DNA of 64,000 nucleotides from Comamonas testosteroni. GTDB taxonomy: Bacteria > Pseudomonadota > Gammaproteobacteria > Burkholderiales > Burkholderiaceae_C. This document shows positions 20,561-36,583 of this stretch, in pieces. The position numbers were made by a program, and so were the translations under genes. How positions within the stretch are numbered: the first letter of the stretch is position 1; each line of letters begins with the position of its first letter. Under the pieces are notes generated by a model. The model did no database searches. It was not told the DNA's origin and saw only the letters and a list, made by a program, of their open reading frames with translations. The stretch is taken from positions 5,704,001 through 5,768,000 of the forward strand of contig NZ_CP043568.1 of assembly GCF_014076415.1 (NCBI RefSeq), given 5' to 3'.

Positions 20561-21520
20561 TCATATGTCCAGGACCAGGCGCTCGCTCTTGCAGCCGGAG
20601 ACGCAGACCATCATGACCTTGTTGGCGGCGCGCTCCTTGGGGCTGAGCACCGAGTCGCGGTGGTCGGGCACCCCTTCGAGCACGCGGGTCTCGCAGGAGC
20701 CGCAGACGCCTTCGCAGCAGCTGTGGTCCACATCGATACCAGCGTCCAGCAACGTGTCCAGCAAGGACTTGTCGGGCGTGATCTCGATGAAGCGGCCGCT
20801 GCGCTTGAGCTCCACCGTGTAGTTGCTGCGCGCATCGGACGATGCCTTGACCTCCACCGGCGTGAAGCGCTCGATGTGGGCGTTGGCGTGACCGAGCTCG
20901 GCGCAGAACTTCTCGAAGGCGTCGAGCATGGGCGTCGGACCGCAGGAGTAGTGGTGCAGGCCCGCATCGGGTGCGCGCTGCGCCAGCAATGCCCGCAGAT
21001 CGGGCGGGCCGCCCGCTTCCGCATCGAAATGCAGCTGCAGCGGCATGCCCAATGCCTGCAGTTCCTCCAGAAAGGCCGCGCTCTTGCGCTCGCGCGCAAA
21101 GTACAGCATCTCGAACGAATGCCCCAGGCTCTTCAAGCGGCGTGCCATGCACAGCATGGGCGTGATACCGATGCCGCCGGCCACCAGCACCGAATGCGTC
21201 GCCGTCTCGTCGAGCGCGAAGTGGTTGCGCGGCTCGGAGATGGTGATGGGCATGCCCACGCGCAGCGACTCGTGCACGCAGCGCGAGCCACCGCGGCTGG
21301 CGCGGTCACGCAGCACACCGACCACGTAGCGGTGGCGCTCGCTGCTGTCGTTGGACAGGGAATAGCTGCGCACCAGCCCGTTGGGCAGGTGCAGATCGAT
21401 GTGCGAGCCGGCCGTGAAAGCCGGAAACTCGCCGCCATCGACCGGGCGCAGCTCCACGCTGATGGTGTCCTGGGCCTCGAAGCGCAGCGTGTGCACAAAG
21501 GCCTGCAAGCTGTTGCTCAT
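20561..21520 (-). CDS. Phthalate-dioxygenase-reductase-type oxidoreductase (FMN, NAD, 2Fe-2S)
   Basis: Electron donor for the adjacent Rieske oxygenase, 319 aa. The order is FMN-binding barrel (RSYSLSND), NAD domain (VAGGIGITPMLCMAR and SCGPTPMLDAF), then a C-terminal plant-type 2Fe-2S ferredoxin. The four cysteine ligands are in CCEGVCGSC and the later MMVCVSGC. This domain order is that of PDR, VanB and related class IA reductases. Its ATG overlaps the oxygenase stop (ATGA), showing one two-component enzyme. Only the reducing partner is identified here; the substrate is set by the oxygenase. Confidence 0.93.
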   Translation of the reverse strand: MSNSLQAFVHTLRFEAQDTISVELRPVDGGEFPAFTAGSHIDLHLPNGLVRSYSLSNDSSERHRYVVGVLRDRASRGGSRCVHESLRVGMPITISEPRNHFALDETATHSVLVAGGIGITPMLCMARRLKSLGHSFEMLYFARERKSAAFLEELQALGMPLQLHFDAEAGGPPDLRALLAQRAPDAGLHHYSCGPTPMLDAFEKFCAELGHANAHIERFTPVEVKASSDARSNYTVELKRSGRFIEITPDKSLLDTLLDAGIDVDHSCCEGVCGSCETRVLEGVPDHRDSVLSPKERAANKVMMVCVSGCKSERLVLDI

Positions 21521-22542
21521 GATGCGATGCCTTCGTCAATCTGTTCCTGGGCCTGGCGGCGCAGGTGACGGCGCAGGCGCACCAGGCCGATGTCGTGCTG
21601 GTAGAGGTTCTCGCGCTCGTTGGCGTCGGCTTCCATCTGCTCCATCATGATGCGGTCCTGCTCCAGCACGGCCCAGTGGCGCGCCTCGAGGCGGTTGCGG
21701 TAGAGGAAGCGCCAGGTGTCGCGCATCCAGCCCTGCACCTTGCGCGCACGCCAGAAGAACACTGCGCACAGATCGGCGCTGATGGGCGTGACGCAGGCGA
21801 CGATGGCGAAGTTGCCGCCGGGGCCGCCGGTCTTGGGATAGGGAATCTCCAGGCGCATCCACTGCACGCCGGTTTCGCCGTATTCGGTCCAGTCGAAGTT
21901 CACGCCGCGCTGGCCGACCTTCTCGAACACAAAGCCGTGATCGGTGTCACGCACCTGGAAGCTGGCCTTGCTGTCGCCCTCGGCCATGGAGTGCGACTGC
22001 TTGTGCAGGAAGGTTCCGTGCATGGGATCCATGACGTTGTCCAGTGCATAGCGGTAGTCGCTGCGCCACTCGGCATAGCACAGGAAGTTCGAGTACTCGG
22101 CAGAGCTCAGCTCCTCGGGCAGGCTGAACTCGGGAGCCTCGTCCACATGCTTGTCGCTGTTGTAGAGAAAGATTGCGCCATGCATCTCGCGCACATGGAA
22201 GGCCAGCGCTGCGCGCGAGCCTTCGAGCTTGCAGCCGGGGCTGCCGGGCACCTTGGTCACCGTGCCGTCGCAGCGCACTTCCACGCCGTGGTAGGGGCAG
22301 GCCAGGCGGTCGCCCAGGATCACGCCCTGGGACAGCGGCGCGCCGCGGTGCGGGCAGTGGTCTTCCAGTGCATGGACCTGGCCGGCGGCATCGCGCCACA
22401 GCGCGATCTTGCGGCCGAAGCGGCGCAAGGAGACGGGCTCGGTCTTGACGAAATCCGAAGGGCAGACTGCATACCAGAGGTTCTTCAGACCCGTGTTGAG
22501 CAGACGGTCCACCGGATCGATGGTGATGGTTTGTACGTTCAT
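21517..22542 (-). CDS. Rieske non-heme iron oxygenase, large subunit (phthalate/vanillate oxygenase-like)
   Basis: A 341-aa aromatic-ring hydroxylase or O-demethylase. Rieske ligands are Cys63-x-His65 in CPHRGAPLSQG and Cys82-xx-His85 in CPYHGVEV. The catalytic iron site is in ALDNVMDPMHGTFLH: bridging Asp172, with His175 and His180. The size without a beta subunit, together with a PDR-type reductase, fits the alpha-only group (phthalate 4,5-dioxygenase, vanillate demethylase, carbazole-type). GAC/CAGGAGT lies just before ATG 22542. It is 24 bases after the small HTH-like gene and translationally coupled to the reductase. Confidence 0.93.
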   Translation of the reverse strand: MNVQTITIDPVDRLLNTGLKNLWYAVCPSDFVKTEPVSLRRFGRKIALWRDAAGQVHALEDHCPHRGAPLSQGVILGDRLACPYHGVEVRCDGTVTKVPGSPGCKLEGSRAALAFHVREMHGAIFLYNSDKHVDEAPEFSLPEELSSAEYSNFLCYAEWRSDYRYALDNVMDPMHGTFLHKQSHSMAEGDSKASFQVRDTDHGFVFEKVGQRGVNFDWTEYGETGVQWMRLEIPYPKTGGPGGNFAIVACVTPISADLCAVFFWRARKVQGWMRDTWRFLYRNRLEARHWAVLEQDRIMMEQMEADANERENLYQHDIGLVRLRRHLRRQAQEQIDEGIAS

Positions 22543-22566
22543 GGAGTACTCCTGTCCTGTTCTGTC

Positions 22567-22788
22567 TCAATAGCCCAGACGTGCCATCAGGGCCTGGAAG
22601 CTGTCTTCGGTCCAGGGCTCGCCGTTCTCGCCGGCGGGGCCGCTGCGGTTGATGTAGGCCACCAGTTCGGGCAGCGTCTGCACGCCCTCGCCAAAGGCAC
22701 GCTCAATGGAGTCGCCCAGCAGGTCCTCAAACAGGGTGGAGGCGCGCTCGCGCGCCTGATGCGGCTCGAGATATCGATCAGCGGCCAT
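22567..22788 (-). CDS. Small recombinase-HTH-like protein upstream of the Rieske gene
   Basis: 73 aa, soluble, starting MAADRYLEPHQ. ATG 22788 is chosen because AAGGAGAG precedes it. The C-terminal half (LPELVAYINRSGPAGENGEPW, then TEDSFQALMARLGY) resembles the helix-turn-helix found in large serine recombinases, where a glycine, a GxxW and an SF/TV helix recur. There is no catalytic recombinase domain. From memory, stand-alone proteins of this kind are annotated as recombinase-like HTH proteins and often lie next to aromatic oxygenase genes. It could be a small regulator or an accessory of the oxygenase; its function is not known. Confidence 0.7.
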   Translation of the reverse strand: MAADRYLEPHQARERASTLFEDLLGDSIERAFGEGVQTLPELVAYINRSGPAGENGEPWTEDSFQALMARLGY

Positions 22789-22875
22789 GGTTCTCTCCTT
22801 CGAAAACTGTCTTGAATCGTGGTTCGGTTTCATTGCCCGGAGCGCAGCGCGTCAAACTGCCACAGCCCGACCCCA

Positions 22876-22980
22876 GTGACACCGAGGAAGGGTCCGGGTC
22901 AGCTGCACCGCGCCACACCGAGGGTGTCGTCCCCCTTGGGGGCGCCGTGCAACGGGAAGGCGCGAAGCGACTCAGGGGGT
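22876..22980 (-). repeat. GC-rich dispersed repeat, copy 4 (3' of Bug receptor 1)
   Basis: On the minus strand it starts with ACCCCCTGAGTCGC seven bases after the stop of the Bug gene at 22988 and ends with a CCTCGGTGTCAC-like tail at about 22876. Confidence 0.85.
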
Positions 22981-22987
22981 AGGTCAT

Positions 22988-23965
22988 TCAATCAGCCCGG
23001 ATATCCAGGTCCTTGATCAGCTTGCCGAAGCGGTTGTAGTCGGCAGCGTTGGTCTTTTCCAGACGTGCCGGCTCGCCGCCTGCAGGCAAAGCGCCGAAGG
23101 CCGCCATCTTGCTGACCACATCGGGCATCTTCAGAATTTCATTGAGATGGGTGTTCAGCAGCTTGACGGTCTCGGGCTTCATGCCCTTGGGACCGAACAG
23201 GCCTTGCCAGGCCGACACTTCCACGTCCTTGACGCCCTGCTCGGCCAGCGTGGGCACATTCGGTGCCAGCGGACTGCGCTGTGCATCGGCCACGGCCAGC
23301 ACATTGACCTTGCCGCCTGCGTAGGGCGCGATGGGGCCCCAGGTCATGAAGGTCGTGGGCACATGGCCGCCGATCAGGTCGTTGACTGCGGGCGCCACGC
23401 CCTTGTAGGGAATGTGGGACAGCTTGGTGCCTGCGGCCTTGTTGAACATCTCGCCCAGGATGTGCATGGGCGAGCCGCTGCCGGGGCTGGCATAGGTCAG
23501 GCCGTCGCGCTTGCCCTGGCTCGCCAGGGTCTTGATGTCCTTGATGCCCGAGCCCTGGCTGGCGGCCACGAACATGGGCTGCACGCTGGTCTGCACGATG
23601 GGCGTGAAGCCGCCGAGCACGTCGTAGCTCGAACCCGCATTGGTCTTGAGCACGAACTGGGCGATGGCAAAGGTATTGGGTGCCAGCAGCAAGGTGTAGC
23701 CGTCGGGCGCGGCCTTGGCCACATGCACGGTGCCGATGGTGCCGCTGGCACCGGGCCGGTTGTCCACCACCACGGGCTGGCCCAGTCGCTGGCCCAGCTT
23801 CTCGGCATACAGGCGTGCCATGGCATCGGTATCGCCGCCGGCCGGATAGGCCACGACGATGGTGATGGGCTTGCTCGGATAGGCTTGCGCCAGCGCGGAA
23901 CCGGACATCTGGGCTGCAGCCAGCAATGCAGCAGCGATAACTACCTGGCGACGAATGTTTTTCAT
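22988..23965 (-). CDS. Bug-family (TTT) periplasmic solute receptor 1
   Basis: A 325-aa tripartite tricarboxylate receptor. The signal peptide ends SALAQ near residue 27 and is followed by the diagnostic YPSKPITIVV and, further on, NRPGASGTIG. Later family motifs are YASPGSGSPMH, HIPYKGVAPAVNDLIGG and PNVPTLAEQG. Bug proteins bind carboxylates, amides or aromatic acids in the periplasm. No TctA/TctB membrane partners are nearby. It is flanked by dispersed repeats on both sides and lies between the HTH/Rieske genes and the extradiol dioxygenase, so it probably recognises the pathway substrate. Confidence 0.93.
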   Translation of the reverse strand: MKNIRRQVVIAAALLAAAQMSGSALAQAYPSKPITIVVAYPAGGDTDAMARLYAEKLGQRLGQPVVVDNRPGASGTIGTVHVAKAAPDGYTLLLAPNTFAIAQFVLKTNAGSSYDVLGGFTPIVQTSVQPMFVAASQGSGIKDIKTLASQGKRDGLTYASPGSGSPMHILGEMFNKAAGTKLSHIPYKGVAPAVNDLIGGHVPTTFMTWGPIAPYAGGKVNVLAVADAQRSPLAPNVPTLAEQGVKDVEVSAWQGLFGPKGMKPETVKLLNTHLNEILKMPDVVSKMAAFGALPAGGEPARLEKTNAADYNRFGKLIKDLDIRAD

Positions 23966-24030
23966 GAAATAGCCCGTGGGGTTGTGGTTAAGCCTCTAGC
24001 CAGCCAGAGGATCTGGAGAATTCGCTCACA

Positions 24031-24152: not shown

Positions 24153-24157
24153 GTGTT

Positions 24158-25129
24158 TCATTTCTTGTCTGTCAGGAACTTGCCGTCGGCAGCGCCCACG
24201 CCCTTCTGGCGCCGGGTGTTGCCGTCCAGGCCGCCGTCGATGGCCCATTCGGCGAACACTGTCGGACCGGGTTCAAACTCGCGCGGCTGCCATTCGGCCG
24301 TGAGCTGGTCCTCGTCGGCGTAGTACTCGACCAGGGCACCGGCCGGATTCTTGAAGTACCAGAAATAGGCCGAGGACACGGGGTGGCGACCCGGGCCGAG
24401 CTGGGTGTCCCAGCCGCAGCGCGAGATGTGCATGCCGCCGCCGAAGACCTCGTGGATGTCTCGCACCGTGAAGGCCACGTGGTTCAGACCGGCATGCTTG
24501 TCCGGGCGCTGCAGCAGGAAGATGTCGTGGTGGCCGCCATCGGGCGCGGTGCGCAGAAAGGCGCCGCGCTCGGGGTAGCGGTCCGAGGCCGCGAAGCCGA
24601 AGTTCTCCACATAGAAGCGCTCGCAGGCCTGCACATCCTTGACGAAGAACACCACATGGCCGACCTCGATAGGCTGGGCGCGTTCATAGGCCGGGCTGGC
24701 CTGGTTGATTCGGCCCTTGCGGTCCCAGGTGTTGTACTCGGCGCTTTGCATCTGCACATCGCGCTTTTGCGTGAGCTGCAGGCGCACGGCCAGGCCGTTG
24801 GGGTCGGTGCAGCCGATACGTCCGCCGTTCGGGCCACCCTGCTTCACAAAGCCCGGCAGCTGCGCAATACGGGCTTCGTAAAGCGCCAGGTCGGCTTCGC
24901 TTTCCACTCCCCAGACCACTTCGCGCAGCGTGGGGCCGGGCTCGATGGCGGGCGGCAGATCGGGATGCTCGGTGGCGGCCACGATCACACGGCAGCCGTT
25001 CAGTGTCTCGAACACCAGCCGGTCGGCCTGCTCCTCGGCCAGGCTCAGGCCCCAGTCGAGAAAGAACTGGCGGCAGGCCGCCAGGTCGTCGGCGCCGTAG
25101 CTGATTTCGTCAATGCCCAGTACGCTCAT
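24158..25129 (-). CDS. Two-domain type I extradiol (VOC) ring-cleavage dioxygenase
   Basis: 323 aa in two vicinal-oxygen-chelate domains. The C-terminal domain carries the iron ligands: His158 in VGHVVFF, His217 in LNHVAF and Glu268 in VEYYAD. The conserved NPAGALVEYY just before the glutamate is typical of catechol 2,3-dioxygenase-like enzymes. AAGGAG precedes ATG 25129. It would cleave a catechol-type ring next to the hydroxyls. It is 11 bases after the aldehyde dehydrogenase stop, in the order ThDP enzyme, ALDH, dioxygenase. The about 50-residue C-terminal tail is longer than usual. Confidence 0.88.
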   Translation of the reverse strand: MSVLGIDEISYGADDLAACRQFFLDWGLSLAEEQADRLVFETLNGCRVIVAATEHPDLPPAIEPGPTLREVVWGVESEADLALYEARIAQLPGFVKQGGPNGGRIGCTDPNGLAVRLQLTQKRDVQMQSAEYNTWDRKGRINQASPAYERAQPIEVGHVVFFVKDVQACERFYVENFGFAASDRYPERGAFLRTAPDGGHHDIFLLQRPDKHAGLNHVAFTVRDIHEVFGGGMHISRCGWDTQLGPGRHPVSSAYFWYFKNPAGALVEYYADEDQLTAEWQPREFEPGPTVFAEWAIDGGLDGNTRRQKGVGAADGKFLTDKK

Positions 25130-25140
25130 GTCGTGCTCCT

Positions 25141-26616
25141 TCAATTCGCCCAAGCGATGGGGCTCTCGTTCAAACCCCAGTACATGCTTTTCTGCTCCAT
25201 GTACTGCTGTATTCCCAACCGCCCCTTCTCGCGCCCCAGGCCGCTGTCGCGCCAGCCGCCGAAGGGCGTGGAGATGGAGAACTGCTTGTAGGTGTTGATC
25301 CACACGGTGCCGGCCTGCACCGCGCGGCCTATGCGCCATGCGGCCTTGTAGTCGCGCGTCCAGATGCCGGCGGCCAGCGCGTAGACGCTGTCGTTGGCCT
25401 GCTCGAGCAAGGCCTCTTCGTCATCGAAGGGCATGGCCACCAGCACAGGGCCGAAGATTTCCTGCTGGCAGATCTGGTCGGTGTTGCTTACGCCTTCAAG
25501 GATGGTCGGGCGGTAGTAGTAGCCGCGCTCGTACAGCGCGCCCTCGGGGCGGTGGCCGCCGGTGCGCAGCCTGCCGCCTTCGGACAGGCCCAGCTGCACA
25601 TAGCTCTCGATGGATTCGCGGTGCTTGGCGGTGATCAGCGGCCCCATCTGGGTGCGCTCGTCGGCCGGATCGCCCACGCGTAGCGCGGCGGCCTTGGCCG
25701 TGAGGCGCTCCATGAAGTCGCCATAGAGCTTGCGTGCCACGAACAGGCGCGAACCGGCAATGCAGGATTCGCCCGAGGAGCTGAAGATGCCGTAGAGCAC
25801 GCCGTTGACGGCATGGTCGAGGTCGGCGTCTTCCAGCACCATGGTGGCCGACTTGCCGCCCAGCTCCAGAGAGACGGGCATCATCTTGTCGGCAGCGATG
25901 CGGGCGATGTGCTTGCCCGTGGAGGTGCCGCCCGTGAAGGACACGCGCTTGACCAGCGGGTGCTTGGTGATGGCGTCGCCAATCACCGAACCGCGGCCGG
26001 GCAGCACGCTGACGATGCCCTTCGGAACACCCGCTTCCTCGCAGATCCGGGCCAGCTCCAGCGCCAGCAGCGGCGTGGCTTCGGCGGGCTTGACGACCAC
26101 GGCATTGCCGGCCGCCAGCGCGGGAGCGAGCTTTTGCGCCTCGCTGGCGATGGGCGAGTTCCACGGCGTGATGGCCGCGACCACGCCCATGGGCTCATAG
26201 ACGCTCATGGTCATGAAGTCGCCACGCGACGGCGTGATGGTCTCTTCCATGGTCTCGCAGGCCGCGGCGAAGAACTGGAAGGTGCCGGCAGCGCTGGCTA
26301 CCAGCGCACGCGTCTCGCTGATGGGCTTGCCGTTGTCCAGGCGCTGCAGCTGGGCCAGCGGCTCGGCACGCTCGCGGATCAGCTGGGCCACGCGATGCAG
26401 CACGGCGGCGCGCTCATGGGGCTTCTTCTGGGCCCAGCCGCTGGTTCGGAAGGCATGGTCGGCCTTCTCGATGGCCTCTTGCACATCGGCCAGGCTGGGG
26501 GCGCGCAGGCGGCCCACCACCTCGCCGGTCGCGGGGTAGAGCGTGGCGGACTCGTCGCCGCCGCCAAGACGCCATTCGCCGCCGATATTGATGGGGAGCA
26601 GTTCTAGGTTCGACAT
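25141..26616 (-). CDS. NAD(P)-dependent aldehyde dehydrogenase
   Basis: 491 aa. The catalytic cysteine is Cys285 in GESCIAG, the general base Glu251 in ELGGKS and the Asn153 in PWNSP; the NAD-binding FTGGTSTGK is intact. It resembles betaine-aldehyde, benzaldehyde or hydroxymuconic-semialdehyde dehydrogenases. ATG 26616 is the start that gives the normal N-terminus; the longer frame runs into the upstream gene. It lies 35 bases after the ThDP enzyme and 11 before the dioxygenase. It would oxidise an aldehyde made either by ring cleavage or by decarboxylation of a 2-oxo acid. Confidence 0.92.
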   Translation of the reverse strand: MSNLELLPINIGGEWRLGGGDESATLYPATGEVVGRLRAPSLADVQEAIEKADHAFRTSGWAQKKPHERAAVLHRVAQLIRERAEPLAQLQRLDNGKPISETRALVASAAGTFQFFAAACETMEETITPSRGDFMTMSVYEPMGVVAAITPWNSPIASEAQKLAPALAAGNAVVVKPAEATPLLALELARICEEAGVPKGIVSVLPGRGSVIGDAITKHPLVKRVSFTGGTSTGKHIARIAADKMMPVSLELGGKSATMVLEDADLDHAVNGVLYGIFSSSGESCIAGSRLFVARKLYGDFMERLTAKAAALRVGDPADERTQMGPLITAKHRESIESYVQLGLSEGGRLRTGGHRPEGALYERGYYYRPTILEGVSNTDQICQQEIFGPVLVAMPFDDEEALLEQANDSVYALAAGIWTRDYKAAWRIGRAVQAGTVWINTYKQFSISTPFGGWRDSGLGREKGRLGIQQYMEQKSMYWGLNESPIAWAN

Positions 26617-26651
26617 CGTGAAGCTCTTTCGTTCTTGCTGGTCGTGCTGGC

Positions 26652-28349
26652 TCACTGAGCCTTGGTGGTGGCCGGGATCTGGTCCAGCTTGTTCACCGGA
26701 GGGCCCGAGAACGTGGTCTTGAAGCTGCCGATGGCGCGCATGTCGATCTCGAGCAGGAAGGGCCCCTTCTTGCCCCAGGCGTCTTCCAGCACCGCGGGCA
26801 GCTCGTCGAGATGGCTCACGCGGGCATGGGGCAGCTTGATGGACGCGCACAGCTGGGCGTAGTCGGGCGTATGCAGCTCCACATAGCAGCGGCGGCCGCC
26901 GTAAGAGGCGTCCTGGATGTTCTGGATCACGCCATAGCGCTGGTCGTTCATCAGCACGATCATGGTGTCGCACTCTTCCTGCACCAGGGTGGCAAGCTCG
27001 CCCAGGTTCAGGATGAAGCCGCCGTCGCCGGCCAGGCCCAGGGTCTTGCGACCCGAGCCGCTTTCGGCCGCGCCGATGGCCGCACCGATGGCCATGGGCA
27101 TGCCCATGCCGATGCCGCCGCCCGTGGCGTGCACGCCGGCGTTGGGAGCGAAGAAGCGCAGTTCGCGGTTGCCCCAGGTGCTGTTGGAGACGGTCACGTC
27201 GCGCACCCAGTTGAAGTTGCGGCCCACGGCCTGCTGCAGCTGCTGCACCAGGGCGCTGTAAGGGCCCAGGCCGTCGCGCATGGTGGCCACGACTTCGTCG
27301 TGCACCTGGCGCAGGTCGGCCAGCAGCTCGGGGTCGGCCTTGTAACCGCGCGCTTCCAGGCGGTCGGCCAGGCCGCTCAGGGCCAGCGCCGAGTCGCCGC
27401 AGACAAAGCCGTCATCCATATAGCAGCGGCCTTGCTGGGCGGCGTCCACATCGATGCGCAGCAGCGGGCGCGGCAGCTTGAGTTCGTACTTCAGCGTCTC
27501 GTTGCTGCGCAGGCGCGTGCCCACGGCCAGCATGGCGTCGCAGCGCTGGTAGAAGGCTTCGACGGGCTTCTGGATGTTGTAGGCGCCCAGGGATGCGGGG
27601 TCGTCTTCGGGCACGATGCCACGGCCCTGGCCGGTGCTCACGATGCCGAAGCCCAGGGCCTTCAGACGCTGCACGGCAGCGCCGGCATGGCGGGCGCCGC
27701 CGCCCAGCCACAGCAGCGGGCGCCTGGCCTTGGCCAGTTGGTCGGCCAGCGCGTCGAGCGCGGCCTCGCCGGGAGCCAGCACGGCCACCGGCAGGGGCGA
27801 CAGATCGGCGGGCATGGCTATCAGCGCCTGCTGGATGTCGATAGGAATCTCCACACTGACCGGGCCCGTGGGAGCGGTCATCGCGGTCTGCACCGCGGCC
27901 TTGAGCGTGGACAGGCAGGTCTCGGCGCTCAGCACGCGGAAAGCGGCCTTGGAGACGGACTTCAGCATGGTCAGCTGGTCCGGCGCCTCGTGGATGTACG
28001 ACAGCTTCTTGTCCAGGTACTGGGTCTCGATCTGGCCCGTGATGTGCAAGAGCGGCGTGCCGGCCGTATAGGCCTCCACCAGGCTGCCGGCGATATTGCC
28101 CGAAGCCGGCCCGGTGCTGGTGATGCACACGCCCAGACTGGAGGTGGAGCGCGCGCAGGCATCGGCCATATTGCCGGCGCCGGCCTCGCCGCGCGCCATC
28201 ACGAAGCGCACCTTGCCGCGGGCAAACATCGCGTCGAGGATGGGCATGTTGTGGATGGAGATCACCCCGAAGGCGGCCTTCACGTCGCAGTGCTCGAGGA
28301 ATTCGGCAACGACGGCGCCGACGGTGATTTGGTTTGCGGTGGATGTCAT
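26652..28349 (-). CDS. Thiamine-diphosphate-dependent decarboxylase/synthase family enzyme
   Basis: 565 aa with the three-domain plan of acetolactate synthase and benzoylformate decarboxylase. The activating glutamate is Glu55 in ARGEAGAGN. The central domain includes LLWLGGGARHAG, and the ThDP/metal motif GDGGFILNLGELATL...NDQRYG is in the C-terminal domain. Next to an aldehyde dehydrogenase, a 2-oxo-acid decarboxylase giving an aldehyde is the simplest reading; a carboligase is the alternative. It begins a likely operon with the ALDH and the extradiol dioxygenase. The substrate is not deducible. Confidence 0.88.
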   Translation of the reverse strand: MTSTANQITVGAVVAEFLEHCDVKAAFGVISIHNMPILDAMFARGKVRFVMARGEAGAGNMADACARSTSSLGVCITSTGPASGNIAGSLVEAYTAGTPLLHITGQIETQYLDKKLSYIHEAPDQLTMLKSVSKAAFRVLSAETCLSTLKAAVQTAMTAPTGPVSVEIPIDIQQALIAMPADLSPLPVAVLAPGEAALDALADQLAKARRPLLWLGGGARHAGAAVQRLKALGFGIVSTGQGRGIVPEDDPASLGAYNIQKPVEAFYQRCDAMLAVGTRLRSNETLKYELKLPRPLLRIDVDAAQQGRCYMDDGFVCGDSALALSGLADRLEARGYKADPELLADLRQVHDEVVATMRDGLGPYSALVQQLQQAVGRNFNWVRDVTVSNSTWGNRELRFFAPNAGVHATGGGIGMGMPMAIGAAIGAAESGSGRKTLGLAGDGGFILNLGELATLVQEECDTMIVLMNDQRYGVIQNIQDASYGGRRCYVELHTPDYAQLCASIKLPHARVSHLDELPAVLEDAWGKKGPFLLEIDMRAIGSFKTTFSGPPVNKLDQIPATTKAQ

Positions 28350-30204: not shown

Positions 30205-30259
30205 TCCAGCTTGTTGCACCCAAGCTTGAAGCGCCCCCGCTGCATGCACCGTTTCCGTC

Positions 30260-30341
30260 GCCAGAGACAGCAAGCAAGGGCCGCCCCGCAGCGAGGCTGT
30301 CGTCCCCCTGGGGGGAAGGCGCGCAGCGACTCAGGGGGCAA
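30260..30341 (-). repeat. GC-rich dispersed repeat, copy 7 (3' of SDR 2)
   Basis: A shortened copy. On the minus strand CCCCCTGAGTCGCTGCGCGCC begins six bases after the stop of SDR 2 and ends GGCCCTTGCTTGCTGTCTC. The central hairpin region is partly deleted. Confidence 0.8.
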
Positions 30342-30347
30342 TTCATA

Positions 30348-31124
30348 TCAATTCATGACGAAGCCGCCGTTGACGGGCAGGACCTGCCCCGTCACAAAGC
30401 GCGCACCGTCCGACAACAGATAGGAAACGGCACCCGACACATCCTCGGGGCCCTGCTCGCGCTGCAGCGCGCGCTGGTCGATGTAGAGGCGATGGCGATG
30501 CTCGGGCACGTACTCGGTGGCCTCGACCAGCACCAGGCCCGGCGCCACGGCATTGATGGTGATGGCATCCGCGCCCAGCTCGCGAGCCATGGAACGCGTC
30601 ATGGCCATCACGGCGCCCTTGCTGGCCACATAGGCCATCAGGTTGGGAGCGCCCCACATGGCGGTGTCGGAAGCCAGATTGACGATGGCACCGCGCCCGC
30701 TGTCCTTGAGCGCCGCACGGCAGGCACGGGTCATCAGCCAGACGCCGCGCACATTGACGTTCATCACCTGATCCCACTTTTCCAGGGCGATGTCGTCCAT
30801 GCCCTTGCCGCCGGAGTCCGTCACGGCCGCGTTGTTGACCAGGCCATCCAGACCGCCAAGGGTCTGCACGGCCTGCTGTGCGCACTGCTCGATGGAATCC
30901 GGGTTGCTTGCATCAAAGGCGACGCCGTGAGCCTCGAAGCCCATGGCGCGCAGCTTGGCAACGGCTTCGCTCAGCAACTCGGCGCGCAGATCGGCCATCA
31001 CAAGCTGCGCCCCCTGCTGGCACAGCGTCTGCGCAAAAGCAAAACCCAGGCCGCGCGCAGCGCCGGTCACAAGAATCCGGCGCCCAGCGAGCTGACCGGT
31101 GGAAGGCATGGTGTTGAGGGTCAT
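30348..31124 (-). CDS. Short-chain dehydrogenase/reductase 2 (canonical)
   Basis: 258 aa, NAD(P)-dependent. TGAARGLG is the nucleotide site and NNAA follows beta-4. The catalytic Ser152, Tyr165 and Lys169 (YVASK) are all present, unlike the neighbouring SDR. The C-terminus VTGQVLPVNGGFVMN is standard. ATG 31124 is preceded by AAGG. It could be a cis-dihydrodiol dehydrogenase-like step if the Rieske enzyme makes a dihydrodiol, or an alcohol/ketone step later on. The upstream DNA carries CTTGTTT-type motifs that may be IclR sites. Confidence 0.9.
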   Translation of the reverse strand: MTLNTMPSTGQLAGRRILVTGAARGLGFAFAQTLCQQGAQLVMADLRAELLSEAVAKLRAMGFEAHGVAFDASNPDSIEQCAQQAVQTLGGLDGLVNNAAVTDSGGKGMDDIALEKWDQVMNVNVRGVWLMTRACRAALKDSGRGAIVNLASDTAMWGAPNLMAYVASKGAVMAMTRSMARELGADAITINAVAPGLVLVEATEYVPEHRHRLYIDQRALQREQGPEDVSGAVSYLLSDGARFVTGQVLPVNGGFVMN

Positions 31125-31136
31125 CTTAAACCTTGT

Positions 31137-31175
31137 TTGTTTCAAATATGAAATGACACTTTTTTCTTGAAACAA
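31137..31175. promoter_or_regulatory. Inverted repeat upstream of SDR 2, possible IclR operator
   Basis: TTGTTTCA at 31137-31144 is the exact reverse complement of TGAAACAA at 31168-31175. The right half is itself in CTTGAAACAAG (31166-31176), and CTTGTTTTAAG recurs at 31193-31203. TTTCAAATATGAAA nearby (31140-31153) is another small inverted repeat. The region is AT-rich and directly in front of SDR 2, so promoter/operator function is likely but unproven. Confidence 0.45.
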
Positions 31176-31436: not shown

Positions 31437-31440
31437 TAAG

Positions 31441-32199
31441 CTAGCAAACAACTCTTTCCTTCGCAGGCGTCAGGCGCAGAAAGTCCAGCACCACGCACTG
31501 CGCGTAGCGGCTTGCCACCGTGCGCACAAAATCCGAAAAATCCACATGCGCACTGTCGTCCGCCCGGTCCGAGATGGTGCGCATCGCGGCAAAAGGCGTG
31601 CCGTAATCCAGGCAGGTCTGGGCCACGGCAGCGCCCTCCATCTCCACGGCCAGCACGGCGTGGCCGGCGGCCTCCAGATCGGTTCTCAGCTGCGCGCTGG
31701 CCTGGCGCGAACTGACAAACTGATCGCCGCTGGCAATCAGTCCCTGATGCACGCGGGCCGAAGCATACGAAGCCGCGATGCCGGAACGAACCGCCGAGTC
31801 GGCGGCCTGCGCCAGCCGGTCCGTCGCCGCCTCGTCGCAGGCCAGGGTGCTGCGGCCATAGCCGGGCAATTGCCAGCGCGGAAAGATCGGCGAGGCATCC
31901 ATGTCATGCTGCACAAAGCTCCGGGCGATCACCACATCGCCCACGTTCACATCCGCGCCGATGCCGCCCGCCACGCCGGTGAACAGAATGCCGCGCACGC
32001 CGAAGCGCTCGATCAGCGCGGCGGTAGTGGTGGCAGCGGCCACCTTGCCTATGCCCGACAGCGCGCACACCACCTCATGGCCATGCAGTCGGCCTAGCCA
32101 GAAGTCGCGCCCGGCATGGCGCAGGCATTGCATGTCCTGCATGGCGTCGACCAGGCCGTGTTGTTCTTCGGCAAGAGCGCTGAGTATGGCAAGCGTCAT
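31441..32199 (-). CDS. mtnN: 5'-methylthioadenosine/S-adenosylhomocysteine nucleosidase
   Basis: 252 aa. It removes adenine from methylthioadenosine and SAH. Landmarks are the N-terminal ILSALAEEQ with catalytic Glu11, the TGVAGGIG loop, the substrate-binding VEMEGAAVAQ (Glu186/Glu188) and the catalytic Asp211 in RTISDRADD. ATG 32199 was chosen over an upstream frame that lacks family similarity. Its placement inside the catabolic block, between SDR 2 and Bug receptor 2, may be accidental, or it may recycle by-products if a SAM-dependent step exists. Confidence 0.9.
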   Translation of the reverse strand: MTLAILSALAEEQHGLVDAMQDMQCLRHAGRDFWLGRLHGHEVVCALSGIGKVAAATTTAALIERFGVRGILFTGVAGGIGADVNVGDVVIARSFVQHDMDASPIFPRWQLPGYGRSTLACDEAATDRLAQAADSAVRSGIAASYASARVHQGLIASGDQFVSSRQASAQLRTDLEAAGHAVLAVEMEGAAVAQTCLDYGTPFAAMRTISDRADDSAHVDFSDFVRTVASRYAQCVVLDFLRLTPAKERVVC

Positions 32200-32269
32200 G
32201 AATGGGGTTCTCCGGAACATGGGCCGGGCGGCCCTGGTGAAAGCACAAAAGAAAGTACAAGGAAAGCAC

Positions 32270-32292
32270 AAAAGCGGCACCAGGCCGCTTTT
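32270..32292 (-). terminator. Intrinsic terminator of Bug receptor 2
   Basis: AAAAGCGGC and GCCGCTTTT pair around ACCAG, directly downstream of the Bug 2 stop on the minus strand. Confidence 0.8.
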
Positions 32293-32329
32293 GGGGGATG
32301 CGCAAGAGGCGCGATTAGAGCACGAGGGC

Positions 32330-33316
32330 TTACTGCGCCTCGATCTCATGACTTTTGATGATGGGCGCCCAAAGCCCTGTTTCCTTGCGGATCAGCTCGC
32401 CGAAAGCCTCGCCCTTGACCACCCAGGGCGTCATGCCCTGTGCCTTGAGCTGATTGAGGGCTGCCGGGGTCTTGAGAATCTTGTCGATATCCTCGCCCAG
32501 CTGCCTGACCACCTCGGCAGGCGTGTTCTTCGGAGCCAGCACGCCATACCAGGAGGAAATGGCAATCCCCGGCACGCCGGCTTCGGCCAGAGTCGGCACA
32601 TTGGGCAAAAAGCCCGAGCGCGCGCCGTCGGTCACCGCCAGCGCGCGCAGCTTGCCCGACTGCACATGGGGCAGCACGGTGGGCAGATTGGCCACGATCA
32701 TGGGAATGGTGCCGCCCAGCACATCGGTCACGCCCTGGGCAGAGCCCTTGTAGGCCACATGCATGATGTCCGCGCCCGACTTGTCCTTGAACAGCTCGCC
32801 CGCCAGGTGCAGGCTGGAGCCCACGCCGGGCGAGGCGTAGCTGATGGAGTTGGGCTTGGCCTTGGACAGCGCCACCAGTTCCTGAACCGACTTGGCCGGC
32901 ACCTGCGGATTGACAGCAATGACATTGGCCGTGCGCCCCATGGAAGCCACGGGCACAAAGTCGCCAAACACGCTGTAGGGCAGCTTGGGCATCAGCGTCG
33001 GGTTGATGGTCAGATTGCCTTGCGGCACGACCAGCAGCGTATGGCCGTCGGGCTTGGCACGCTTGACCATATCGATACCGATATTGCCGCTGGCGCCGGG
33101 GCGGTTGTCGACGATGGCGGCCTGCTTGTAATGCTCGGTCAGGCCGGTCGCCAGAATTCGCGCCAGGATGTCCACAGGACCACCTGCAGGGAAAGGCGCA
33201 ATGACGGTGAACTGCCCGGCGGAAAGCTGCTCGGCGGCAGTCGCCGCATGGGCGACGGGCAGGGCCAGGACGCTGGCCAGCGCCAGGCAGGATTTGAGAA
33301 AGTCGGAGCGTTGCAT
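32330..33316 (-). CDS. Bug-family (TTT) periplasmic solute receptor 2
   Basis: 328 aa with a signal peptide ending AHAAT/AAE near residue 25. The family motifs FTVIAPFPAGGPVD, NRPGASGNIG, YASPGVGSSLHLAGE, HVAYKGSAQGVTDVLGG and PNVPTLAEAGVPG are present. It differs clearly from receptor 1 and so may bind a different compound. No TctAB permease genes are nearby. It sits downstream of the aspartate-dehydrogenase-like gene with a 190-base gap (33317-33507), in which no gene or clear signal is seen, and ends at its own terminator. Confidence 0.92.
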   Translation of the reverse strand: MQRSDFLKSCLALASVLALPVAHAATAAEQLSAGQFTVIAPFPAGGPVDILARILATGLTEHYKQAAIVDNRPGASGNIGIDMVKRAKPDGHTLLVVPQGNLTINPTLMPKLPYSVFGDFVPVASMGRTANVIAVNPQVPAKSVQELVALSKAKPNSISYASPGVGSSLHLAGELFKDKSGADIMHVAYKGSAQGVTDVLGGTIPMIVANLPTVLPHVQSGKLRALAVTDGARSGFLPNVPTLAEAGVPGIAISSWYGVLAPKNTPAEVVRQLGEDIDKILKTPAALNQLKAQGMTPWVVKGEAFGELIRKETGLWAPIIKSHEIEAQ

Positions 33317-33507
33317 GAGGGTTCCAGAGGGTGGGGATGCCAGGCCGGCCGAGCTTCAATGCGCGCCCTGTTTGACGATGCGCAAGGAAATATTCGCCCA
33401 ACCGTGACACCATGCTGAAGTGGGAAAGTCTGTTTGCAGGCTTGCAACAACAAGCAAGAGAGGTGCCAAGCCCATGGCGTGCATGACGCCAATGACCTGA
33501 CGCCGGA

Positions 33508-34308
33508 TCAGATGGCCAGTGGTGCCACGTTGTTGAGTACCGAGCGCACGACGCTGTACACCGTCAGCGCCGATGTCTTGGGGTTGGCCGCCAGAGGCTT
33601 GCCGCGCATGGTCAACTCCATGGCGCCGAAAGCACCCCGCGCCTCGACCTGGTGCACGTTTTCGTGGACGCCAGGGTCGGCAAACAGACGCACCATGGTC
33701 TTGTCCAGCCCCAGTCCGGCCAGCGACAAGGTGGCCGCCACATTGGCATTCTTGGGATAGAGCTGTGCGGCCTCGCGCGCCGAGCCTTCAAAAATGCAGA
33801 AGGCCTCGGTCAAGCCGTCCAGATCGCAGACTTGCTCGGCCGGGGTACCGCTCCAGGCCTTTGGCGGCTTGCGGCCTGTGTAGACCACCGTCTCCAGTCC
33901 GCCCACGCGCGCCGCCGCCAGCGCATCAATGCCGCCGATGGCGCCCGACAACAGCTGGGCCTGCGTCCTGCCAGCCTCGGCCGCAGCCTGTACCCGCTCG
34001 GCCATGCCCGGGGCACTCAAGGCGCCTATGGATGCGATGACCGCCGGAATGCCGCGCGCCAGGGCCGGCAGCACATGCTCCTCTATGGCTGCATGACCCG
34101 CGCATTCCACCAGCAGATCCGGCACCGCGTCGCCGGGCAAGGCCTGCAGCAGCTGCGCCTGTGGCGCCAGGCGGGCAGCCGTCTCGCGCACGGCTGGCGT
34201 GATCTCGGGAACCAGTACCCAGCCCACCTGCAGCCGGGTATCTCCGCTCAAAAGCTCCAGCACACTGGAGCCAATCGCGCCGCAGCCAATCAAAGCAATA
34301 TTTTTCAT
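33508..34308 (-). CDS. L-aspartate dehydrogenase-like oxidoreductase (NadX family)
   Basis: 266 aa. An N-terminal Rossmann fold (IALIGCGAIGSS) is followed by LLSGAIGGIDALAAAR and the C-terminal YPKNANVAATLSLAGLGLDKT, both typical of aspartate dehydrogenases. The family interconverts aspartate and oxaloacetate (iminoaspartate) with NAD(P). Nothing near it makes NAD (no nadA or nadC), and it lies with IclR, ThDP, ALDH and SDR genes. A catabolic amine oxidation is therefore more likely. From memory, an aspartate dehydrogenase in Pseudomonas aeruginosa (PA3505) has a similar gene company. It starts 42 bases after the IclR 2 stop. Confidence 0.85.
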   Translation of the reverse strand: MKNIALIGCGAIGSSVLELLSGDTRLQVGWVLVPEITPAVRETAARLAPQAQLLQALPGDAVPDLLVECAGHAAIEEHVLPALARGIPAVIASIGALSAPGMAERVQAAAEAGRTQAQLLSGAIGGIDALAAARVGGLETVVYTGRKPPKAWSGTPAEQVCDLDGLTEAFCIFEGSAREAAQLYPKNANVAATLSLAGLGLDKTMVRLFADPGVHENVHQVEARGAFGAMELTMRGKPLAANPKTSALTVYSVVRSVLNNVAPLAI

Positions 34309-34350
34309 CTCTAGCCTCCTGAAAAATGCGCTGGCCCGGCGTGATCGGGG

Positions 34351-35157
34351 TCAGCGCAAATGGTCCGGGTGCTGCTGGCGCAAATGAGCGGACAAAGTCT
34401 CTGCCGCCTGCTGCACCTTCTGCACCCAGAGCTGGGTTTTTTCGGGCCCCAGCTCGGTAAACGGAATGGCCATGGCCAGCCCCGCAACCACCCGCCCGTC
34501 TGCGGCGCGCACCGGCGCTGCAATACTGGAAACGCCAGGCTCGTAAAAGCCCTCGCCCATGGCATAGCCGCGCTCGCGATCCTCGGCCAGCAGGCGCAGC
34601 AGCTCGTCGACGTTGCGCGGCGTGCTCTCGGAGAACTGGGGCAGTTCCTCGCCGCCAAACACCGAGCGCAGCTGCGCGCCATCCATGTCATGCAGCAGGG
34701 CCCGCCCCAGCACCGTCGCATGCGCCGGCAGACGCGAGCCCACGCGCACCGCGCCCTGGAATGCCCCGGACGGAGTGACGCGTGCCACATAGACCACGGA
34801 AGTGCCGTCGCGCAATGCAAGATTGCTGGTCATGCCCAGCTCATCGCACAAGGCCTGCAGCACAGGCTCGGCCAGTTGCGCCAGCGGCTGGGTGGACAGA
34901 TAGTCATAGCCCAGGCGCAGCACGGCCAGACCGAGCCGGTATTCGGTACCGCTGCGCTGCAGATACCCCGAGTTTTCAAGCGTGGTCAACATGCGAAACA
35001 CCGTGGAGCGCGGCAGCTCGAGGCTGCGCGCCAGCTCGGGCGCACTCCAGACCGGCTGCTCCGGACCAAAGCAGGCCAGCAGGCGCAGTCCTCGATCCAG
35101 GGCTGGCACGGTGTAACGATCTTGTTCGTTGGTTGAAATCTCAGGGGTTTCGCTCAT
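34351..35157 (-). CDS. IclR-family transcriptional regulator 2
   Basis: 268 aa from ATG 35157 (TTG 35181 possible). The winged-HTH segment is ELARSLELPRSTVFRMLTTLE and the ligand domain carries RVGSRLPAHATVLGRALLHD and GFYEPGVSSIAAPVRA. It is a close paralogue of the IclR at 29314, and the two share the DRGLRLL/ERGLRLL entry and HTH helix sequence. It follows the alpha/beta hydrolase by five bases, and the hydrolase and cupin precede it, so it is probably co-transcribed with them and may autoregulate the unit. Confidence 0.92.
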   Translation of the reverse strand: MSETPEISTNEQDRYTVPALDRGLRLLACFGPEQPVWSAPELARSLELPRSTVFRMLTTLENSGYLQRSGTEYRLGLAVLRLGYDYLSTQPLAQLAEPVLQALCDELGMTSNLALRDGTSVVYVARVTPSGAFQGAVRVGSRLPAHATVLGRALLHDMDGAQLRSVFGGEELPQFSESTPRNVDELLRLLAEDRERGYAMGEGFYEPGVSSIAAPVRAADGRVVAGLAMAIPFTELGPEKTQLWVQKVQQAAETLSAHLRQQHPDHLR

Positions 35158-35162
35158 AGCAA

Positions 35163-36041
35163 TCAGCTGGTATTGGGGCAATAGCTTTGGTTCAACAAAG
35201 ATGCCAGCCTATGCGCGACCTCCATTGGTTGTTCCACGGGTGAAGCATGACCGGCAGCCGCAAGCGTACCGTAGTGCGCGCCCAGCAGTTCGGACCAGGA
35301 CTTGCAGGCTGCAGGTGTGGTCACCACATCGTGCTCGCCGACCCAAACCTCGACCGGCATGCCCAGCCTGCCCTGTGCCTGTGCCAGATCGCTGCCGCAT
35401 AGCAGCTCGACCGCCTGCGCATAGCCCTGCGGCTGCATGCGTGCCGTATTCCAGCGCACCCATGCACGCACGGCTTCAGGAGCCTCGGAGGACACCAGGC
35501 GCTGATCGATGACGGCCGCCAGACCCGCGACCCCCTTCTCGGCCAGTGAAGCCAGACGACCCTCGCGCACCTTGGCCTGCTGCTCGGCCTTGGCCGTCGC
35601 GCCGTAGCCGCCCGCCGGGCTGATGAGCACCAGTTGCTCGACCAGTCCCGGCGCGGCCATGGCAGCCAGCCTGGCTGCCATCAGGGCGCCCAGCGAGTGC
35701 CCGACCAGGATGCAACGCCGAACGCCCAGCACCAGCAGCGACTGAGCCAGCGCCTGTGCATAGTCGGCATCGGCAGGCGCCGATTGGGCCAGCGGCGTCG
35801 AGACGCCATAGCCAGGTGCATCCCAGGCCAGAACGCGCACTTTGTCAGCCAGCTGCAGCGCCACATCCAGCCAGGATGCTGCCCCGGAGCTGATGCCATG
35901 CAGCAGCACCACCGCAAAGTCGGAGCTGGCGTCGCCTGCCTCGCGCCAGGCGACCTGAGCCTTCTGCGGAAGCTTCACCAGCCGCTCGGGAAAACCGGTC
36001 TGCAGCAGCTGCAGTTTCAGCGACAGCAAATCTTCATGCAT
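35163..36041 (-). CDS. Alpha/beta-fold hydrolase
   Basis: 292 aa. The oxyanion motif LLHGISSG, the nucleophile elbow VGHSLGAL (Ser116), an acidic residue in GEHDVVT and the histidine in AAGHASP form a complete catalytic set. The size fits meta-cleavage-product hydrolases (C-C bond hydrolases of ring-cleavage pathways) as well as general esterases. Given the extradiol dioxygenase in the same block, ring-fission product hydrolysis is an attractive inference. ATG 36041 is eight bases after the cupin stop; the longer frame would overlap the cupin. Confidence 0.85.
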   Translation of the reverse strand: MHEDLLSLKLQLLQTGFPERLVKLPQKAQVAWREAGDASSDFAVVLLHGISSGAASWLDVALQLADKVRVLAWDAPGYGVSTPLAQSAPADADYAQALAQSLLVLGVRRCILVGHSLGALMAARLAAMAAPGLVEQLVLISPAGGYGATAKAEQQAKVREGRLASLAEKGVAGLAAVIDQRLVSSEAPEAVRAWVRWNTARMQPQGYAQAVELLCGSDLAQAQGRLGMPVEVWVGEHDVVTTPAACKSWSELLGAHYGTLAAAGHASPVEQPMEVAHRLASLLNQSYCPNTS

Positions 36042-36049
36042 GGCGAAGC

Positions 36050-36583
36050 TCAGCGCTTGATCTTGGCCAGAGGATGCTCGGGCGGATAAGTCGGGGTGAC
36101 GGGCTTTTTGGCGCCCAGCATCACGCACATCAGCGCATCCTCATCACCGACATTGATCTCTTCGCGGTAGACGCCGGGCGGCACCGAAACCACATCGCGA
36201 TCGGTCAGGATGGTCTCGAAACGCTCGCCGTCCTTTTCCAGCACCAGCTTGAGCTTGCCGCGCATCACGAAAAACACTTCTTCCACATCGGTGTGCAGAT
36301 GCGAAGGGCCTTCATGGCCGGCGGGAATCACCATGGTGGAGAAGGTGAAGTTTTCCGACGGAATGGTGTTGCTGTCGGAGGCCACGCCCGTGCCGCCCGT
36401 GCCGATGTAACGCATCTGGCCGCGGCGGTATTTGGGGTCAAAGTCGGCCTGGAACTTCAGGGCATCGAAGTCGTACTTGCGCGTGGCAAAGCGCGCAATG
36501 CGTGTGCTCATCCAGTCTTCAAAGCTGGAACCCTCGGGGCGATCCCAAGTACGGGCGCTGTTGTCTTGTGCGATCTCGCTCAT
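36050..36583 (-). CDS. Single-domain cupin protein
   Basis: 177 aa. Cupin motif 1 is present: GHEGPSHLHTDVEEVFFVMRG with metal ligands His95, His97 and Glu101. In motif 2 (VSVPPGVYREEINVG) the usual histidine is Arg, so the metal site is incomplete. AGGAGAG precedes the ATG. Such cupins in catabolic blocks act as dioxygenases, isomerases or ligand-binding helpers; no specific reaction can be assigned. It is the first gene of the unit with the hydrolase, IclR 2 and aspartate-dehydrogenase-like gene. A strong inverted repeat lies 28 bases upstream. Confidence 0.82.
   Translation of the reverse strand: MSEIAQDNSARTWDRPEGSSFEDWMSTRIARFATRKYDFDALKFQADFDPKYRRGQMRYIGTGGTGVASDSNTIPSENFTFSTMVIPAGHEGPSHLHTDVEEVFFVMRGKLKLVLEKDGERFETILTDRDVVSVPPGVYREEINVGDEDALMCVMLGAKKPVTPTYPPEHPLAKIKR

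Follow-up and report, generated by a model that had tools for sequence, protein, structure and literature searches.

The window, a stretch of 64,000 nucleotides from a Comamonas testosteroni-like genome, carries between positions 20561 and 36583 a block whose catalogued genes all lie on the minus strand and form one locus. We propose that this block enables the cell to take up and degrade quinoline-2-carboxylates, chiefly kynurenate (kynurenic acid), a reading to which we give an even chance; that its substrate is some two-ring N-heteroaromatic acid seems more probable still. A wider claim may also hold, at a little less than even probability: that the block gives the bacterial kynurenate pathway its first gene set, with a new lower half in which a dedicated L-aspartate dehydrogenase (AspDH) captures iminosuccinate and with modules feeding in xanthurenate and quinaldates, covering in many species every part of the quinoline branch of tryptophan breakdown.

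Derived from tryptophan and occurring in animals, gut and plants, kynurenic acid acts on both the nervous and the immune system. If the proposal is true, kynurenate consumers could be read from genomes and metagenomes, orphan enzymes would gain sequences, a 60-year-old pathway would become testable by a few knockouts, and one cluster would serve the whole quinoline branch in many species, including Klebsiella and Acinetobacter. Even with another quinoline as substrate, the block would represent a coherent, widespread catabolic cluster that puts AspDH to a new use.

Conservation of the gene cluster

A scan with one genome per species returned 397 relatives of the extradiol dioxygenase, of which 80 were kept; 66 of these named loci are full-length. 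Gene set, linkage and co-occurrence can be read directly from them. Nine genes (extradiol dioxygenase, Rieske oxygenase, its reductase, two SDRs, ThDP enzyme, aldehyde dehydrogenase (ALDH), AspDH and an IclR regulator) occur together in 66/66 full-length loci. These loci were selected on the similarity of their dioxygenases (72-95% identity), and many are closely akin to one another. Eight of the nine lie within 10.8-13.7 kb. A cupin and an alpha/beta hydrolase accompany them in 63 loci, the remaining three ending at the edge of the stretch examined. The grouping of the block genes is not chance. The original prediction had seen here an uncharacterised mixture fitting uptake, hydroxylation and meta-cleavage; uptake, hydroxylation and meta-cleavage within one pathway are supported, and the genes prove to be a cluster conserved in many bacteria, with AspDH as an invariant part.

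Versions of the cluster are present in Pseudomonas, Herbaspirillum, Variovorax, Burkholderia, Klebsiella and Acinetobacter. PA3502-PA3511 of P. aeruginosa may be the same cluster; a literature search for these locus tags found no paper. The distribution is patchy: a dioxygenase match at E <= 1e-30 was obtained in 3 of 369 genomes of a class sample and a match in 15 of 398 genomes of a phylum sample, the own genome included in both. Among 15 further stretches examined, eight held most or all of the cluster, one held part of it, three were on contigs too short to show it in full, and in three, with dioxygenases of 33-41% identity, the cluster was absent. A distant dioxygenase alone is thus no evidence of the cluster. 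Dioxygenases of 26-28% identity are found in three alphaproteobacterial clusters and in a Vibrio cluster, which has an FAD monooxygenase and lacks Rieske oxygenase and SDR1 in the stretch examined.

Proposed pathway: from kynurenate to a substituted picolinate

The quinoline (kynurenate) pathway stems from enzymology done on Pseudomonas extracts in the 1960s (EC 1.14.99.2, 1.3.1.18 and 1.13.11.10). To our knowledge no genes have been assigned to it and the three activities have been orphans since then; among the papers listed in our literature search for kynurenate pathway genes, none made such an assignment either. The intermediates described by Hayaishi, Taniuchi and Dagley reportedly call for the enzyme types of the block, and the title of Horibata et al. 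(1961) names glutamate as a product. Delftia acidovorans (as Pseudomonas acidovorans), which we take to be the classical quinoline-pathway organism, carries the gene set in strain NBRC 14950.

The classical pathway and our scheme share dioxygenation, dihydrodiol dehydrogenation, extradiol cleavage, alpha-keto-acid decarboxylation and aldehyde oxidation, with glutamate as the reported product; the AspDH, cupin and hydrolase steps, in contrast, are new proposals. Genes for Rieske oxygenase with electron supply, SDR1, ThDP enzyme and ALDH are all present, while substrate, order of steps and individual reactions are predictions from sequence.

In the first step, the Rieske oxygenase (21517..22542; single alpha subunit with PF00355 and PF19112 (VanA_C)), a putative kynurenate 7,8-dioxygenase, and its VanB-type reductase (20561..21520; Fer2 and NAD_binding_1 above cut-off) would convert kynurenate to the 7,8-cis-dihydrodiol. 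SDR1 (30348..31175), a predicted cis-dihydrodiol dehydrogenase, would oxidise this to 7,8-dihydroxykynurenate. The extradiol dioxygenase (24158..25129; two-domain), a candidate 7,8-dihydroxykynurenate 8,8a-dioxygenase, would then open the ring to 5-(3-carboxy-3-oxopropenyl)-4,6-dihydroxypicolinate. A reductase, probably SDR2 (28521..29321; NF005468, 450 bits against a cut-off of 266), would saturate the side chain, after which the ThDP enzyme (26652..28349; NF005470, 895 bits against 495; three TPP domains) may decarboxylate the alpha-keto acid to 5-(2-formylethyl)-4,6-dihydroxypicolinate. ALDH (25141..26616, start near 26620; PF00171) would yield 5-(2-carboxyethyl)-4,6-dihydroxypicolinate.

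The catalytic sets that the original prediction had called intact are indeed so, and are invariant in aligned relatives: Rieske C63/H65/C82/H85 and D172/H175/H180/D296 in 10/10, the extradiol iron ligands H158, H217 and E268 together with H201 and Y258 in 11/11, and hydrolase S118/D240/H267 in 10/10. We assume their catalytic identity from family knowledge. The intact iron site that an extradiol dioxygenase requires is therefore present, and the enzyme shares this H/H/E site and the catalytic His and Tyr with type I homoprotocatechuate and catechol 2,3-dioxygenases. Its best PDB match is 3b59, an unnamed dioxygenase-family protein, followed by homoprotocatechuate 2,3-dioxygenases. Nevertheless it scores only 63.9 bits against the HpaD (homoprotocatechuate dioxygenase) cut-off of 321, which places it in a separate family; a 3,4-dihydroxyphenylacetate or catechol 2,3-dioxygenase was rejected because neither equivalog cut-off was reached (63.9/321 and 54.6/320 bits).

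The Rieske system resembles vanillate O-demethylase (VanAB) in combining a Rieske plus VanA_C oxygenase with a one-component VanB-type reductase. Unlike VanAB, its oxygenase gene is paired with an SDR, and the cluster versions of Klebsiella, Acinetobacter and Caballeronia have ferredoxin and FAD reductase genes instead. None of the seven NCBIfam matches of the oxygenase is to a VanA equivalog, and the cut-off of no equivalog is reached (best 69.5 bits, cut-off 600); only the VanA_C domain is matched. In Klebsiella, Acinetobacter, Caballeronia, Paracoccus and others, the gene immediately after the Rieske gene is a relative of SDR1, an order that suggests a dioxygenase with its dihydrodiol dehydrogenase and not vanillate-type demethylation.

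Proposed pathway: pyridine ring and aspartate dehydrogenase

In the lower half, cupin (36050..36583; 177 aa, PF07883) and alpha/beta hydrolase (35163..36047; Ser-Asp-His triad) would break up the pyridine ring and so release iminosuccinate and a C5 acid, the latter being 2-oxoglutarate if cleavage is oxygenolytic and glutarate if hydrolytic. AspDH (33508..34308) would convert iminosuccinate to L-aspartate, and the ten carbons would be accounted for as CO2 plus five plus four.

The cupin presumably acts in ring opening or isomerisation. Its H95, H97 and E101/E102 are invariant, and the position of the motif-2 His is occupied by an invariant R140 (9/9), whereas classical cupin dioxygenases carry a 3-His-1-Glu metal motif. 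This incomplete metal site led us to reject a quercetinase-type dioxygenase and a quercetin route. The structure model is poor (pLDDT 67) and fold search yields generic cupins only. The hydrolase may cleave a pyridine-ring fragment by C-C or amide hydrolysis. Its model (pLDDT 92) has an esterase or enol-lactonase fold with a broad range of esterases as neighbours; PcaD identity was rejected (93 of 256 bits). E-2-(acetamidomethylene)succinate hydrolase of pyridoxine degradation (3kxp) has as its substrate an N-acyl enamine that arises when a pyridine ring is opened, and the hydrolase of the block matches it weakly in sequence and fold, but with 22% identity it ranks 35th and many esterases match better.

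AspDH (NF009827, 471 bits against a cut-off of 226) retains the catalytic His, its His219 aligning with His189 of 2dc1. Of 149 related genomes (kinship ignored), all 24 with the dioxygenase encode AspDH vs 14 of the 125 without it, leaving 14 genomes with AspDH and no dioxygenase. The two genes are 2.3-10.1 kb apart in the 19 genomes that have both on one contig. Since NadB is also encoded in the host genome, AspDH is not needed for NAD; its presence would be explained because a 4-oxo-pyridine-2-carboxylate ring falls apart to iminosuccinate. Of all the parts, AspDH points most clearly to a ring that contains nitrogen.

AspDH relatives also stand beside 3-hydroxyanthranilate dioxygenase in Ensifer and Roseateles (in the latter with kynureninase too), a tryptophan-catabolic context; unlike our cluster, Rieske, extradiol and ThDP enzymes are absent among the annotated genes there. 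Against kynurenate as substrate, none of the clusters in the searched loci has a TDO, kynureninase or formamidase gene next to it, the sole kynureninase match being an AspDH locus of another kind, and none of the locus annotations names kynurenate. In the host genome, TDO and kynureninase are encoded 1.1 Mb from the block.

Satellite modules and alternative substrates

A NicC-like FAD monooxygenase is present in 35/66 full-length loci, in 34 of them between dioxygenase and Rieske gene, and in 14/24 dioxygenase genomes vs 1/125 others (kinship ignored). Among PDB entries, the Collimonas enzyme is closest to 6-hydroxynicotinate 3-monooxygenase. Because NicC releases CO2 in its own hydroxylation, it is a guess that the enzyme provides a side entry from xanthurenate to 7,8-dihydroxykynurenate. 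A molybdenum hydroxylase, which might convert quinaldates to their 4-hydroxy forms as another side entry, adjoins the cluster in Caballeronia NK8, Ramlibacter, Variovorax and one further genome; its orthologue in the host genome sits with the FAD monooxygenase in a satellite locus. Its nearest solved structure is 4-hydroxybenzoyl-CoA reductase, not quinoline oxidoreductase.

These modules would also suit a cluster of the same logic that leaves kynurenate unused and serves another two-ring N-heteroaromatic acid (xanthurenate only, quinaldate or another quinoline or related carboxylate), as would the invariance of AspDH and the Vibrio version without Rieske gene in the stretch examined. We regard this as rather unlikely. 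Because Rieske oxygenase and SDR1 occur in 66/66 full-length named loci, the ring of the main substrate apparently enters the pathway unhydroxylated and has to be dihydroxylated; kynurenate is the simplest such compound to yield iminosuccinate as well.

A nitrogen-free aromatic or plant phenolic is an unlikely substrate. It would undergo VanAB-like demethylation or hydroxylation, meta-cleavage and alpha-keto-acid decarboxylation, with AspDH relegated to a side task (nitrogen balance or an aspartate conjugate). The VanA_C domain with VanB-type reductase, the PcaR/PobR-type IclR regulators (below cut-off) and the broad occurrence in soil and plant bacteria agree with this, but AspDH is present in all 24 dioxygenase genomes although NadB is encoded too, the core is without an amidase, the Rieske-SDR1 pairing suggests a dihydrodiol and not demethylation, and molybdenum hydroxylases are among the partners. 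As for named pathways, the original prediction had matched none completely; among the listed matches of 20 scanned ORFs, no curated NCBIfam model for phthalate, protocatechuate or vanillate degradation exceeds its cut-off, and neither a protocatechuate dioxygenase nor a phthalate oxygenase model appears. We also set aside the naringenin fde operon, which is not known to include AspDH or a ThDP enzyme, and the histamine/imidazoleacetate route, which presumably offers no place for an extradiol dioxygenase. The riboflavin/lumichrome catabolic operon lum likewise relies on ThDP decarboxylase, molybdenum hydroxylase, and Rieske and extradiol dioxygenases to break down an N-heterocycle, yet was rejected for its different enzyme set: a two-subunit ThDP decarboxylase, an alpha/beta Rieske enzyme, another substrate and, in the excerpts of PMC12746152, no mention of AspDH.

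That the block is a mere chance run of unrelated catabolic genes is extremely improbable: genera differ in gene order, and the window has cupin, hydrolase and AspDH in a separate part that carries an IclR gene of its own, but the same set is kept together in alpha-, beta- and gammaproteobacteria, and four kinds of the cluster's genes are co-induced in A. baumannii in the mucin table excerpted from PMC5757984. Apart from this table, none of the papers listed in a literature search on AspDH in clusters of Rieske or extradiol enzymes deals with the gene set.

Transport, regulation and accessory genes

Two Bug (TctC-type) solute receptors (32330..33316 and 22988..23965; PF03401) belong to the block. 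Alongside it, also on the minus strand, lie a porin (19301..20365; PF13609) and an MFS carrier (17878..19197; PF07690), possibly of the anion:cation symporter type (TIGR00893, 132 bits, below the cut-off of 395). IclR regulator 2 (29314..30273) is the copy common to all 66 full-length loci; regulator 1 (34351..35181), of PcaR/PobR type, is an extra copy with close relatives in 5/80 named loci (Comamonas, Delftia and one MAG). A promoter scan gave one site vs 2.2 expected.

While every gene kind that the original prediction had listed is present on the minus strand, it had missed two genes. One, MTA/SAH-nucleosidase-like (31441..32349; NF004079, 280 bits, cut-off 169), is found in 4/80 named loci (Comamonas/Delftia; plus two shorter matches, one Polaromonas locus) and is a doubtful member of the cluster. 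The other encodes a 73-aa HTH_62 protein (22567..22788; PF20552, 106 bits) directly upstream of the Rieske gene; it is present in 66/66 full-length loci, where 18-180 bases separate it from the Rieske match downstream, and is a possible partner of Rieske oxygenase and reductase.

Conservation of the gene block

The block lies in a genome of 5.95 Mb (the window being G000:C1:5704001-5768000), and its nearest named relative is that of Comamonas testosteroni JL40, whose extradiol dioxygenase is 98% identical. Gene and domain checks on the window recovered every gene listed in the original prediction, all intact and on the minus strand, and added two that it had overlooked: an MTA/SAH-nucleosidase-like gene (31441-32349, minus strand), inserted between Bug1 and SDR1, the proposed cis-dihydrodiol dehydrogenase, and a gene for a 73-aa HTH_62 (recombinase-like HTH) protein (22567-22788, minus strand), directly before the Rieske gene. 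A class II fructose-bisphosphate aldolase (TIGR01521; 38734-39798, minus strand) and a long-chain acyl-CoA ligase (36844-38520) are ordinary neighbours of the block.

Genome contigs, one genome per species, were scanned with the dioxygenase; of 397 relatives the best 80 were kept, and 66 of these loci, each of at least 20.9 kb, make up the full-length set. Rieske protein, reductase, dioxygenase, SDR1, SDR2 (the proposed side-chain reductase), ThDP enzyme, ALDH, L-aspartate dehydrogenase (AspDH) and IclR are all present at 40% identity or more in 66/66 loci, which do not amount to 66 independent events, having been picked by similarity (dioxygenase 72-95% identical) and many being closely related. 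The eight enzymes of the set fit within 10.8-13.7 kb. Cupin and hydrolase were each found in 63 of the 66; in L037, L040 and L041 (the last from Delftia acidovorans NBRC 14950) the fetched stretch stops before reaching those genes. The block is a real, conserved and coherent catabolic cluster.

The commonest order is SDR1-cupin-hydrolase-IclR-SDR2-ThDP-AspDH-ALDH-dioxygenase-Rieske-reductase; in the window this order is rearranged, and a second IclR is present together with Bug receptors. In many Pseudomonas and Herbaspirillum loci a SsuA/TauA-like ABC solute receptor (402-1403 in locus L082; counted in 49/66 loci) stands upstream of SDR1, replacing the Bug receptors. The nucleosidase-like gene has close relatives in four of the 80 named loci, each from Comamonas or Delftia.

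The HTH_62 protein is encoded 18-180 bases ahead of the Rieske match in all 66 full-length loci. Among distant versions of the cluster, the window protein matches those of Acinetobacter, Klebsiella, Novosphingobium and Caballeronia NK8 and finds no match in L118, L122, L131 and L132. Annotation nevertheless names an HTH_62-type protein in these four loci, and three of the four have it preceding ABC transporter genes. We regard the HTH_62 protein as either a putative regulator or a partner of the Rieske protein.

A proposed route for kynurenate

Rieske oxygenase, dihydrodiol-type SDR and extradiol dioxygenase together make an upper pathway of standard type. With a keto-acid-type ThDP enzyme, ALDH, a second SDR, hydrolase, cupin and AspDH, the lower part departs from the usual hydratase-aldolase route. 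Most likely, the cluster supplies the genes so far missing for the breakdown of kynurenate and related quinoline-2-carboxylates. The kynurenate route, reportedly elucidated by Hayaishi, Taniuchi, Kuno, Horibata and Dagley, leads from 7,8-dihydroxykynurenate to an oxopropenyl-picolinate, its decarboxylated formylethyl derivative and then the carboxyethyl derivative. Such intermediates call for the enzyme types of the cluster, in that order.

After side-chain shortening, the ring left would be a 4-oxo-pyridine-2-carboxylate. Its opening between C4 and C5 would give N-C(COOH)=CH-COOH, that is iminosuccinate, the AspDH intermediate, and the remaining half would be a C5 acid, 2-oxoglutarate or glutarate; the former would account for the reported glutamate. 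Since NadB is present in the genome, AspDH would be free for a role in the pathway. The cupin keeps HxH and Glu and has Arg at the motif-2 His position, which makes an oxygenase role doubtful. Delftia acidovorans (L041), the classical organism of the quinoline pathway, carries the gene set.

No kynurenate gene cluster was found among the open-access matches listed (subscription journals and preprints lie outside this scope), nor in passages of PMC11354673, PMC4938989 and PMC13151070. Tryptophan-catabolic genes exist in the genome that carries the block, with no linkage to the cluster here or in the loci searched. In two further loci, L125 and L123, AspDH relatives adjoin 3-hydroxyanthranilate 3,4-dioxygenase and a dihydrodipicolinate-synthase-like gene, in L125 also kynureninase; this is possibly another tryptophan-derived route employing AspDH.

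According to a table in PMC5757984, mucin raises expression of four Acinetobacter baumannii genes 2.2- to 3.7-fold, those for an alpha/beta hydrolase (A1S_0954), AspDH (0956), an aldehyde dehydrogenase (0957) and a ThDP enzyme (0958). The order of these genes agrees with that of our locus L116, the genes being equated by name and order, not sequence. This response lends weak but real support to co-regulation of the cluster.

Satellite genes and co-occurrence

A satellite locus in the same genome (L161, C1:1872000-1891999) contains a NicC-like FAD monooxygenase, a MarR regulator, a three-subunit molybdenum hydroxylase, a CoxG-like protein and, assigned by looking at the sequence alone, a putative Bug receptor. 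The closest solved structure to the molybdenum hydroxylase is 4-hydroxybenzoyl-CoA reductase. In the proposed scheme the monooxygenase would be needed for 8-hydroxylated quinaldates and the molybdenum hydroxylase for 4-unhydroxylated ones. In Caballeronia NK8 pNK84, Ramlibacter paludis, Variovorax BIN51 and one further genome, the cluster has next to it relatives of the molybdenum hydroxylase and CoxG-like genes of L161 (identity 59-76% for the three molybdenum hydroxylase subunits, 40-78% for the CoxG-like protein).

Among 149 related genomes, 24 were dioxygenase-positive at E < 1e-100, a cut set by us on a list of 61 matches. AspDH exceeded its family cut-off in 24/24 of these versus 14/125 others (Fisher 3e-18, ignoring kinship). 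The FAD monooxygenase (E <= 1e-140) occurred in 14/24 versus 1/125 (2e-12) and the molybdenum hydroxylase (E <= 1e-150) in 10/24 versus 3/125 (4e-7), kinship again being ignored. Within the genus, assuming 53 genomes, the Fisher values are 6e-8, 2e-7 and 8e-5, respectively. In 13 of the 14 genomes having both, FAD monooxygenase and dioxygenase are on separate contigs or more than 1 Mb apart; in G015, one of the related genomes, they share a contig. Being mostly remote, the two are tied in this genus by more than mere neighbourhood.

Distant versions

Annotated plasmid-collection records carry the cluster in Acinetobacter baumannii, Klebsiella, Caballeronia, Novosphingobium, Paracoccus, Nitratireductor and Pseudosulfitobacter, and on Burkholderia and Cupriavidus megaplasmids several of its genes match within one stretch. 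In most of these versions the order is Rieske-SDR1; in Novosphingobium it is not. Electron supply is by a VanB-type reductase in the window and the 66 loci, by ferredoxin and an FAD reductase in Klebsiella, Acinetobacter and Caballeronia, and by an FAD oxidoreductase with a flavodoxin gene in Paracoccus, Nitratireductor and Pseudosulfitobacter. All versions together, a single oxygenase lineage is served by three kinds of electron supply.

In the alphaproteobacterial L122, L131 and L132, which have an FAD oxidoreductase and a flavodoxin-domain gene, the dioxygenase is distant and the cupin is 315 aa long. For Vibrio nigripulchritudo, the stretch shown holds neither Rieske nor SDR1; an FAD-monooxygenase frame is present, breaking after about 316 aa. 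In two Klebsiella records (L117 and L119) the cluster sits between speB and tkt, adjoining MFS genes. On Caballeronia NK8 pNK84 (L151, L133) the cluster occurs twice: linked to the complete copy is a short one, Fd-HTH-Rieske-ThDP-dioxygenase, after which come the molybdenum hydroxylase and a broken aromatic-amino-acid aminotransferase.
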